Assembly: GCA_900472675.1 (NCBI GenBank)
Contig: UCJA01000015.1
Span: 186,001-250,000, forward strand
DNA length: 64,000 bases
Origin: Hyphomicrobiales bacterium
GTDB lineage: Bacteria > Pseudomonadota > Alphaproteobacteria > Rhizobiales > Rhizobiaceae
Reading direction: 5' to 3'
A program made the position numbers and the translations under genes. Positions 11,568 through 19,113 of this stretch are shown piece after piece (the stretch's first letter is position 1; the number at the start of each line of letters is the position of its first letter). The notes beneath the pieces were generated by a model. It ran no database searches. It saw nothing but the letters and a program-made list of their open reading frames with translations, and was not told the origin of the DNA.

Positions 11568-13391
11568 ATGAGCACCACTTCGCGCACCCCACTCGACCAT
11601 ATCCGCAACTTCTCGATCGTCGCGCATATCGACCACGGCAAATCGACGCTGGCCGACCGTCTGATTCAGACGACCGGCGGCCTTGCCGAACGCGACATGT
11701 CCGAGCAGGTGCTGGACTCGATGGATATCGAGCGCGAACGGGGCATCACCATCAAGGCCCAAACGGTGCGCCTGCACTATATCGCCAACAATGGCGAGAC
11801 CTACGTCCTCAACCTGATCGACACGCCCGGCCACGTGGACTTTGCCTACGAAGTGTCGCGATCGCTGTCGGCCTGCGAAGGCTCGCTGCTGGTGGTGGAT
11901 GCCAGCCAGGGCGTGGAAGCGCAGACGCTCGCCAACGTCTACCAGGCGATCGACAACAACCACGAGATCGTCACCGTCCTCAACAAGATCGACCTGCCGG
12001 CGGCCGAGCCCGAGCGGATCAAGGAACAGATCGAGGAAGTGATCGGCATCGATGCGTCGCAGGCCGTGCTGATCTCGGCCAAGACTGGTCTCGGCATTCC
12101 CGATGTTCTGGAAGCCATTGTTCACCAGCTTCCGCCGCCCAAGAGCGAGATGGGCGACAAGGGCCCGCTCAAGGCGCTGCTGGTCGACAGCTGGTACGAC
12201 ACCTATCTCGGCGTCATGGTTCTGGTCCGCATCCTGGACGGCGTGCTGACCAAGGGCCAGACCATCCGCATGATGGGCACCGATGCCAAGTATCAGGTGG
12301 AACGCGTCGGCGTGCTGACGCCGAAGATGCTCGCCGTCGATAGCCTTGGCCCGGGCGAGATCGGCTTTTTCACCGGTTCGATCAAGGAAGTGGCCGATAC
12401 CCGCGTCGGCGATACGATTACCGAAGACAAGAAGCCGACGGCCAAGGCGCTGCCAGGCTTCAAGCCGGCCCAGCCGGTGGTGTTCTGCGGGCTGTTCCCC
12501 GTGGACGCGGCCGACTTCGAGGACCTGCGGGCCGCCATGGGCAAGCTGCGCCTCAACGACGCGTCCTTCTCCTTCGAAATGGAAAGCTCGGCGGCTCTGG
12601 GCTTCGGCTTCCGCTGCGGCTTCCTCGGGCTGCTGCATCTCGAAATCATCCAGGAGCGTCTGGAGCGCGAGTTCAATCTCGATCTCATCGCGACCGCCCC
12701 TTCGGTGGTCTACCAGTTGACGATGAGCGACGGTTCCGAGCGCGAACTGCACAACCCTGCCGATATGCCGGATGTGGTGCGCATTTCCGAGATCCGCGAG
12801 CCATGGATCAAGGCGACCATCCTGACGCCGGACGACTATCTCGGCGGCATCCTCAAGCTTTGCCAGGACCGGCGCGGCATCCAGACCGAGCTCACCTATG
12901 TGGGCAAGCGCGCCATGCTGACCTATGAGCTGCCGCTCAACGAAGTGGTGTTCGATTTCTACGATCGCTTGAAGTCGATCTCCAAGGGCTATGCCTCGTT
13001 CGATTACAATCTGCATGGCTACCGCGAGGGCAATCTCGTGAAGATGTCGATCATGGTGAACGGCGAGCCGGTCGATGCGCTGTCCATGCTGGTTCACCGG
13101 ACCGCTGCCGAAAAGCGTGGCCGCGACATGTGTGAGAAGCTGAAGGACCTGATCCCGCGGCACATGTTCAAAATCCCGATCCAGGCAGCCATCGGCGGCA
13201 ACGTGATCGCGCGCGAGACGATTTCGGCCATGCGCAAGGACGTGACCGCCAAGTGCTACGGCGGCGACGCCACCCGCAAGCGCAAGCTGCTGGACAAGCA
13301 GAAGGAAGGCAAAAAGCGCATGCGGCAGTTCGGCAAGGTCGACATTCCGCAAGAGGCCTTCATCGCCGCTCTGAAGATGAAGGACGACTGA
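11568..13391 (+). CDS. lepA: elongation factor 4 (LepA), ribosomal back-translocase GTPase
   Basis: 607 residues, full length. GTPase motifs are G1 AHIDHGKST (residues 19-27), G2 RERGITI, G3 DTPGHVDF, G4 NKIDLP and G5 SAKTG. The EF-G-like domains and the LepA-specific C-terminus ([27 protein letters not shown]) are intact. The start is the ATG at 11568, which gives the conserved N-terminus; an upstream in-frame start at 11532 is less likely. LepA acts on stalled or mistranslocated ribosomes. Unusually, the gene lacks its own terminator; a lepA-like remnant with one lies about 0.9 kb downstream. Confidence 0.97.
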
Positions 13392-13574
13392 GGGCATCAA
13401 TAGGTCGGGTTGAACCGCAACTTCGGTCTCCCGGCTCTGTTTGTCGGCCTCGTGGAAAAATGCCAGCTCTCGGCAGCAGGATGTTGCTTAGCCGGAGTTC
13501 GCTTGCTCATCGCTTGCTGATTTCGGCGACTGGATTTACGCATTTAGCTGTCCATAGCGCCAGGTGCTTCCCGC

Positions 13575-14201
13575 ATGAAGCCTTTTTTGACGACTGTCAC
13601 ATTGCTGCTCAGCGACCTTGCTGCGAGCCTGGTATTTGTCATCGTTTTTTCGGCCACGGACGATCCCGTGTTGTCCGCCTGCGTGGGCATGTTCATCGGG
13701 ATCAGCCAGCTTGCCGTGCAATTGATCCGCAAAACACCGATCGACAGCATGCAGTGGCTGAGCCTCGGGCTCGTTCTTGTCTCCGGCGCGGCCACGATGC
13801 TGACGGGGGATCCTCGCTTTGTCCTGTTCAAGCCCAGCGTCATCTACCTGATCATCGGCGCCGCCATGCTGAAGCCCGGCTGGATGAACCGCTACCTGCC
13901 GGCCATCGTGAAAGCTGTTGCCGCCGATATCGGCATGCTAACTGGCTATGCCTGGGCGGGCCTGATGTTTGCTTCTGCGGCCCTCAATGCCTATCTCGCC
14001 GTCAGCACCGATGTGGCGATCTGGGCGCTGACGATGGCGAGCTTTGCAATCGCCAGCAAAGTGGTTCTCTTCCTCGGCGGGTTCGGGGCCATACGGCTGG
14101 TCACGCGTGCACGCGTTCGCGCCATGCCAGCCGACCAGCGAGATGCGTTGCTGATATCGATCGGGTTGACGCCGACGGCGCGGCCGCCCGCCTCGGCGTG
14201 A
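13575..14201 (+). CDS. YciB/IspZ-like inner-membrane protein
   Basis: 208 residues with about five or six hydrophobic helices. The segment GDPRFVLFKPSVIYLIIGAAML matches the septation protein A (YciB/IspZ) pattern of a charged FVxxKPTxxY stretch between membrane helices. Family members help organise cell division and envelope synthesis in other bacteria, but this is a divergent copy and the role here is uncertain. It is bracketed by intact lepA upstream and a lepA remnant downstream, which suggests it arrived at this spot by recombination. No good Shine-Dalgarno was seen. Confidence 0.7.
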   Translation: MKPFLTTVTLLLSDLAASLVFVIVFSATDDPVLSACVGMFIGISQLAVQLIRKTPIDSMQWLSLGLVLVSGAATMLTGDPRFVLFKPSVIYLIIGAAMLKPGWMNRYLPAIVKAVAADIGMLTGYAWAGLMFASAALNAYLAVSTDVAIWALTMASFAIASKVVLFLGGFGAIRLVTRARVRAMPADQRDALLISIGLTPTARPPASA

Positions 14202-14272
14202 CGACCCCGTGCGGTTGCCGCCAGAGGTCGAATGGGCCTAAGCTGGCGCACAACCATGGAAATCAGACACCG

Positions 14273-14385
14273 CAAAACCCGGCTGACATGCCGGATGTGC
14301 TACCGCGAGGGTAATCTCGTGAAGATGTCGATCATGGTGAACGGCGAGCCGGTCGATGCGCTGAAGATGAAAGACTACTGAGGGC
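14273..14385 (+). pseudogene. mosaic remnant of the lepA 3' half
   Basis: Three pieces of lepA are joined in order with the intervening parts deleted. Bases 14273-14298 match lepA around 12752-12777 (NPADMPDV). Bases 14299-14363 match 13018-13082 at all but one position ([20 protein letters not shown]). Bases 14358-14385 match 13368-13395 with three differences, through the TGA stop. The joints lack a shared frame, so no LepA product is possible. It lies immediately before a terminator hairpin. Confidence 0.85.
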
Positions 14386-14398
14386 GATTAGCCCTCAG
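14378..14398 (+). terminator. hairpin overlapping the remnant lepA stop codon
   Basis: CTGAGGGC (14378-14385) pairs perfectly with GCCCTCAG (14391-14398) around GATTA. The left arm contains the remnant stop codon. The intact lepA shares only the left arm (CTGAGGGC), so this may be the original lepA terminator. Confidence 0.6.
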
Positions 14399-14524
14399 CT
14401 TCCAACCTATCCGCCGCTCACCCAGGTACTGCTGCCGCTTATAGCGTCTCACAACCACGCAGACGCGTGGCGGATGGATCCCGGCTCAAGGCCAGGATAA
14501 CGGCGGCGAGCTTGGCGTCCCGCC

Positions 14525-15028
14525 TCAGGCCTGCGGCACGGTACCGTCGGGCGTCAGCCCGTCCACGGCGTCGGGCAGGTTGCGCGACAGGCGGCGCAGA
14601 ACTTCAGCTTCCGTCAACCCGGTCTTTTCCGCCACATCGCGCACCACATCGGGGCCGAGCGCTGCGTGTAGCTCGTTGTCGTCGATCGGTTCGTTGGCGC
14701 CTGTGTTGACCCAGCTTTCGGCCTTTTTGGCCTGACCCGTCTGGCGGAACTGATCGAGCAGATCGTTCAATCCACCATTCAGGATCGAACCAAGGCCACC
14801 GGCCGCCAGGCCGCCGCGCAGCTTATCCATAATGTCGTCAAGACCGCTTACCGGACGAGCGGCGGCCGCATCTTCGGTTGACGCCTCGCCGGGGGGCTGG
14901 GACGACGCGCCCGGCGTCTGCCGCGGGCGCTCGGACATGCCCTTCAGGATCTCGGCGATCTTGTCACGGTTCTGATAGCCTGCCACCGCGAGCGTCGCGA
15001 GTAGCGCCTTTAATGGTCCACGCTGCAT
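14525..15028 (-). CDS. YidB family protein (DUF937)
   Basis: 167 residues. The start at the ATG in front of QRGPLKALLA is chosen because AAGGAGG lies 5 bases upstream; a longer frame would extend into the divergent promoter. The middle shows GGLAAGGLGSILNGGLNDLLDQFR, and the C-terminal half IDDNELHAALGPDVVRDVAEKTGLTEAEVL is the YidB domain. The function of the family is unknown; it is soluble and conserved in Proteobacteria. It is divergent from the DEAD-box helicase. Confidence 0.85.
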   Translation of the reverse strand: MQRGPLKALLATLAVAGYQNRDKIAEILKGMSERPRQTPGASSQPPGEASTEDAAAARPVSGLDDIMDKLRGGLAAGGLGSILNGGLNDLLDQFRQTGQAKKAESWVNTGANEPIDDNELHAALGPDVVRDVAEKTGLTEAEVLRRLSRNLPDAVDGLTPDGTVPQA

Positions 15029-19026: not shown

Positions 19027-19113
19027 GCCCAGATGGCGGAATTGGTAGACGCGCCAGCTTCAGGTGCTGGTACCCGAAAGGGTGTGGAGGTTCGAGTCCT
19101 CTTCTGGGCACCA
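19027..19113 (+). tRNA. tRNA-Leu (anticodon CAG)
   Basis: The 87-base gene has acceptor arms GCCCAGA and TCTGGGC, followed by an A discriminator and an encoded CCA. The anticodon stem CCAGC/GCTGG encloses the loop TTCAGGT, giving CAG. The long variable arm (TACCCGAAAGGGTG) and the T arm GGAGGTTCGAGTCCTC fit a class II leucine tRNA. A compact hairpin at 19173-19190 downstream may help end the transcript. Confidence 0.95.

Follow-up and report, generated by a model that had tools for sequence, protein, structure and literature searches.

The 64,000-nucleotide stretch of DNA analysed here (the window), which forms part of contig C18 in a genome of 5.4 Mb (G000), raises the question of how a single additional gene came to lie between lepA and yidB, and how pieces of lepA came to recur on its far side. 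Intact lepA, encoding translation elongation factor 4 (TIGR01393, 968 bits against a cut-off of 534, together with our reading of the sequence), occupies positions 11568-13391 of the plus strand, and yidB (PF20159, 1.9e-28), the right-hand neighbour of the old junction, lies on the minus strand at positions 14525-15028. Between the two stands an inserted segment of about 990 bp (13396-14385, plus strand) that contains a YciB-like gene followed by a scar in which three pieces of lepA recur in their lepA order and run into a hairpin. We consider it probable that this arrangement arose through an integration anchored in lepA, either by a single crossover with a homologous fragment that was truncated or by homology-facilitated illegitimate recombination, and that two internal deletions then reduced the duplicated part of lepA.

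Three collinear fragments of lepA had been proposed by a sequence-only reading of this locus, and the alignments bear them out. All three lie on the plus strand: the first (14269-14299, with a core at 14276-14299) corresponds to lepA positions 12746-12776 (E 1e-5); the second (14299-14363) corresponds to positions 13018-13082, with 64 of 65 bases identical (E 9e-26); the third (14361-14381 after trimming) is the 3' end of lepA including its stop codon, as seen in a match of 14353-14381 to 13363-13391 (E 9e-5). Judged by these E-values against the resident lepA, each piece is beyond chance by itself, and a chance repeat was rejected on this ground. A scan of the entire window for direct repeats of 40 bp or longer, no more than 5 kb apart and with an exact seed of 14 bases, reported a single family, formed by lepA and the scar. 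Pieces two and three are in frame with one another, while piece one is out of frame with piece two; an open reading frame of 41 codons (14256-14381) extends across the scar. Relative to lepA, the duplicate appears to have lost about 242 bp between the first two pieces and about 291 bp between the second and third; reading by eye, we found a CTG triplet at each end of the second putative deletion and almost no microhomology at the first. Duplicated reads would not explain the scar either: the assembly shows 6 differences between the two copies over 110 positions, and an artefact of this kind was likewise rejected.

That new DNA was inserted behind lepA, as the sequence-only reading had also held, is confirmed by the relative G031, in which the insert is absent and lepA leads into a hairpin, then a short repeat, then yidB. 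The lepA gene of G031 ends in GACTGAGGGC-TAGCCCTC and is followed by a short repeat-like stretch, with the match to yidB beginning 131 bp past the lepA stop codon. The scar has ACTGAGGGC-GATTAGCCCTCAG at this point, and comparable repeat-like DNA and yidB come next; when the 3' end of the scar and the hairpin are aligned with the end of G031 lepA, 111 of 179 aligned bases are identical. The intact lepA of the window retains GACTGAGGGC, after which unrelated DNA begins. The exact ends of the insert are ambiguous within the repeated CTGAGGGC. Its left-hand spacer (13396-13574, plus strand) makes up most of the 183 bp that separate the end of lepA from the YciB-like gene, and a further stretch of about 70 bp separates that gene from the scar. 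A search of the lepA loci of 56 relatives at E 0.01 gave no hit to either spacer, and the left-hand one was likewise unmatched in the 59 other genomes searched. Used as a query against the whole genome, the insert matched only itself and lepA.

The insert divides the old hairpin in such a way that the left arm stays with intact lepA and the whole hairpin is found on the scar. This element (14378-14398) reads CTGAGGGC-GATTA-GCCCTCAG, has an 8-bp stem and folds on both strands, with predicted energies of -16.5 on the plus strand (z -3.2) and -17.4 kcal/mol on the minus strand (z -5.5). Its left arm coincides with the stop region of lepA and is present behind the intact gene as well (13388-13395, plus strand), where, as the comparison with G031 illustrates, the right arm alone is missing. 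The description of a terminator hairpin that intact lepA lacks is thus correct for the right arm but not for the left; moreover, the hairpin has no T-run on the plus strand, and a terminator scan places it on the minus strand only, that is, on the yidB side. The counterpart in G031 is shorter and pairs in the predicted fold, within a stretch that is no more stable than shuffled sequences (z -0.64). As read from these sequences, the hairpin is a component of the old lepA-yidB junction and was not gained by the scar. The terminator scan reported six terminator-like sites between positions 13300 and 14600 against 0.8 expected; the four on the plus strand, which fall within the YciB-like gene or at its beginning, were not taken as evidence.

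Two observations concern the region to the right of the scar. A stretch at positions 14454-14510, beside the 3' end of yidB, recurs at scattered sites in various genomes of the genus (several copies, for example, in G032 and in G031) but within G000 matches only itself at E 0.001; it probably belongs to a family of palindromic intergenic repeats. A tRNA-Leu (cag) is located at positions 19027-19113, about 4.6 kb beyond the scar.

When 57 species of the genus were searched with the scar region, 55 of the 56 other species yielded a single match to the second scar piece, located at lepA, and the remaining one (G019) yielded none at E 0.001. Among the 12 candidates scored per genome, no second lepA-like match was present in any of the 56.

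A whole gene, an insert, a 5'-truncated duplicate and then the old downstream DNA is the order expected from a single crossover with truncated homology. In the mechanism that we favour, the incoming DNA would have carried the YciB-like gene next to a 3' segment of lepA and would have integrated at the resident lepA. One end would have been joined through homologous pairing in lepA, such that the new gene came to lie behind a complete lepA, while a 5'-truncated lepA segment, reaching from about position 12753 to the end of lepA, remained on its far side, attached to the old hairpin and yidB. Two routes might yield such an outcome. In one, a circularised fragment carrying the truncated part of lepA would have entered by a single crossover; in the other, homology-facilitated illegitimate recombination would have joined the non-homologous end inside lepA. 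Four Ku-domain matches are present in the genome, two each on contigs C10 and C16, so end joining is possible. The redundant lepA segment would afterwards have lost the two stretches described above. We also considered whether lepA itself carries a trace of the event. In FastTree phylogenies the closest relative of G000 changes between the 5' part of the gene (G033) and the 3' part (G031), but AU tests rejected neither placement (p 0.33 to 0.51; 29 of 57 rows), and a breakpoint within lepA was therefore dropped as evidence. Entry through recombination in lepA, as initially suggested, remains the best inference.

The same final order would result if the 3' end of lepA had first been duplicated in tandem and the YciB-like gene had entered the junction later, or had served as filler during end-joining repair; the presence of CTGAGGGC on both sides of the insert and the four Ku-domain matches would suit this course of events as well. 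It requires two events, however, and it makes a prediction about the sequence of the scar, which should then be a copy of the genome's own lepA. Over the trimmed, aligned pieces, 6 of 110 positions differ between the scar and the resident lepA (a count in which four scar bases enter twice where pieces overlap); the scar also differs from G031 at six positions, and from the next nearest relative at nine. Without trimming, 11 of 125 positions differ from the resident lepA, the ends of the pieces being partly non-homologous. The trimmed alignment took in 56 relatives, and the comparison site by site 55 of them, leaving aside G008, where a contig end restricts the match to 27% of lepA.

Third codon positions hold five of the six differences between scar and lepA, and at four of the six sites the base of the scar is also seen in relatives. 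At positions 12758 and 12764 it is the scar, not the resident lepA, that has the majority base of the genus; at 13031 only G031 has the scar base too, and at 13382 six relatives do. The scar bases at 12761 and 13386 occur in none of the 55 relatives. The one first-position change in the scar, from D to Y, affects a site that is G in all 55 relatives compared. Given the five third-position changes and the four bases shared with relatives, the scar is easier to reconcile with a second functional allele than with a decayed copy of the resident gene. The numbers are small, and when only the four changes on the scar side are counted, three of four are at third positions, which is not significant; still, the scar has the look of another lepA allele, diverged as a working gene, rather than of a fresh duplicate. 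As a scale for such divergence, 155 of 607 third positions are different between the resident lepA and that of G033. A tandem duplication as the first step, for which bases of relatives and mostly third-position changes are unexpected, is hence unlikely in our view. Decay of a lepA duplicate, as previously put forward, agrees with the form of the scar, whereas an origin of this duplicate as a fresh copy of the resident gene is disfavoured. Nor do the data support a recent event, for which the single difference among 65 bases in the middle piece had been cited: this piece is a conserved patch, and the difference grows to 6 of 110 over the trimmed pieces.

The short collinear pieces and their abrupt joins might also call for a scar made in a single step, by template switching during repair and without later deletions. 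Template switching on the resident lepA should have produced identity, yet the six differences follow a codon-like pattern, and we regard this course as quite improbable. A further thought is that the scar was retained for a function, as a peptide of 41 amino acids or as a regulatory RNA, given that its second and third pieces are in frame and that the reading frame across it is open. It is found in one genome only, however, its D to Y change affects an invariant site, and no sigma-70-like promoter match was detected between positions 13300 and 14600 in a scan that covers the sigma-70 type; a retained function is thus very improbable. An integration anchored in lepA, with deletions following integration, agrees better with the features of the scar, and we turn now to the gene that would have been introduced.

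The YciB-like gene (13575-14201, plus strand) encodes a predicted membrane protein of 208 amino acids with hydrophobic segments, which belongs to the YciB/IspA family according to its match to PF04279 (1.6e-14; 54.9 bits against a cut-off of 28.7). Another gene of the YciB family is located on contig C37 of the same genome and scores 190 bits, compared with about 55 bits for the inserted one. With the best NCBIfam models for the IspZ/septation protein A equivalogs, the inserted gene attains 60.3 bits against a cut-off of 180 and 57.4 bits against 165.2; because these scores lie so far under the cut-offs, we view it as a divergent extra copy. A role in the membrane or the envelope may be envisaged from its family membership. 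A comparison of base composition had been suggested as a means to recognise foreign DNA, but GC content gave no such sign: the YciB-like gene (61.6%; GC3 78.0%) resembles lepA (61.8%; GC3 85.2%) and the window (62.9%), and composition is not diagnostic here.

Within the genus, the YciB-like gene is present in 2 of 57 species, namely G000 and G015, whose copy is 64% identical and resides in a different neighbourhood, near putative cobS/cobT and aroB genes (names read from the translations). A search seeded by exact short peptide patterns, which recovers close relatives only, identified 32 loci of named genomes encoding relatives of the YciB-like protein, among them loci from Bradyrhizobium, Enhydrobacter, Reyranella and Phenylobacterium. 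In none of the 32, with flanks of up to 5 kb per side and shorter ones in some, was lepA found beside the YciB-like gene, as it might be in a donor. Two plasmid records, both of Cupriavidus metallidurans, contain relatives with 39% identity.

A transposon or an integrase could have delivered the gene with a short target duplication, for which the direct repeat of CTGAGGGC at both ends and the position of the insertion within a hairpin might be cited. Yet the insert contains no recombinase gene, its only family-matched gene being the YciB-like one, without a match to phage families; its ends lack terminal inverted repeats of at least 16 nt, the length covered by the scan; and the presence of more than 100 bp of lepA by the right end would be left unexplained. 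We give this explanation scarcely any credence. What the locus preserves is a legible record of the entry of one gene into the chromosome with no mobile element in sight.

Variation in the lepA-yidB interval extends beyond this genome. Within the downstream stretch that we read, yidB was found in 8 of 56 relatives and not in the other 48. Its match lies 43 to 44 bp from lepA in G027, G022 and G065, and as far away as 1957 bp in G016, 2483 bp in G066, 2904 bp in G034 and 4770 bp in G061. Both the length of the gap and its open reading frames thus vary across species (G000, G031, G066, G061, G034 and G016), among the eight relatives with yidB in reach; read by eye, the open reading frames of the four long gaps are unlike one another. 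When the first 1.3 kb after lepA were clustered, G000 stood alone, and G061, G034, G016 and G066 fell into four different groups; single linkage merged 35 of the 57 genomes via mixed open reading frames, and the clustering was used solely for this grouping of G000 and the long gaps. Just 0.4 to 2.8 kb of downstream sequence was available for G068, G004 and G025, and the lepA stop codon of G075 is misplaced in the downstream map. A short leader after the lepA stop codon is shared by G002, G063, G077, G062, G079, G001, G015 and G071; in G001, G015 and G002, which were read to 150 bp, it enters the start of an open reading frame that appears to resemble a CcdA-like antitoxin.

In their gene content between lepA and yidB, which differs among related genomes, these loci resemble minimal mobile elements, defined as a pair of conserved genes that enclose differing cassettes (PMC3082526). 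Unlike that system, the comparison made here is across species and not strains, and the lepA scar was found in no other species of the genus that was searched. It is tempting, though doubtful, to view the 3' flank of lepA as a site at which small cassettes are exchanged in this genus through recombination in lepA, with an unfinished exchange in G000 leaving both alleles visible. Among the matches listed in a literature search, judged by titles and the opening parts of abstracts, there was no account of such a lepA arrangement. Both proposed routes are already known, and we regard the locus as a plain, rather unexceptional record of a gene acquired by recombination. Homology-facilitated illegitimate recombination has been proposed in Vibrio for displaced 3' ends of effector genes and the orphan immunity genes left behind (PMC5361080); as in the cases described there and in PMC3240628, the lepA locus would combine a homologous anchor on one side with a non-homologous join on the other, and its insertion measures about 1 kb, but here lepA survives whole. 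The single-crossover route with truncated homology has its counterpart in lacZ of Escherichia coli, where duplications of 109 to 950 bp were present in 14 sequenced clones (PMC3240628). As in lacZ, the target gene stands on one side of the insert and an incomplete direct duplicate on the other, and this duplicate would here have measured about 640 bp before deletion; unlike the lacZ clones, the lepA case is a natural one, has apparently had time to diverge and would have been shortened by two deletions. The locus adds to the instances of gene gain by known routes and points to the lepA-yidB gap as a variable site in the genus. It also permits a direct comparison with the uninterrupted site of a relative, and between two copies of the anchor gene that appear to be different alleles.
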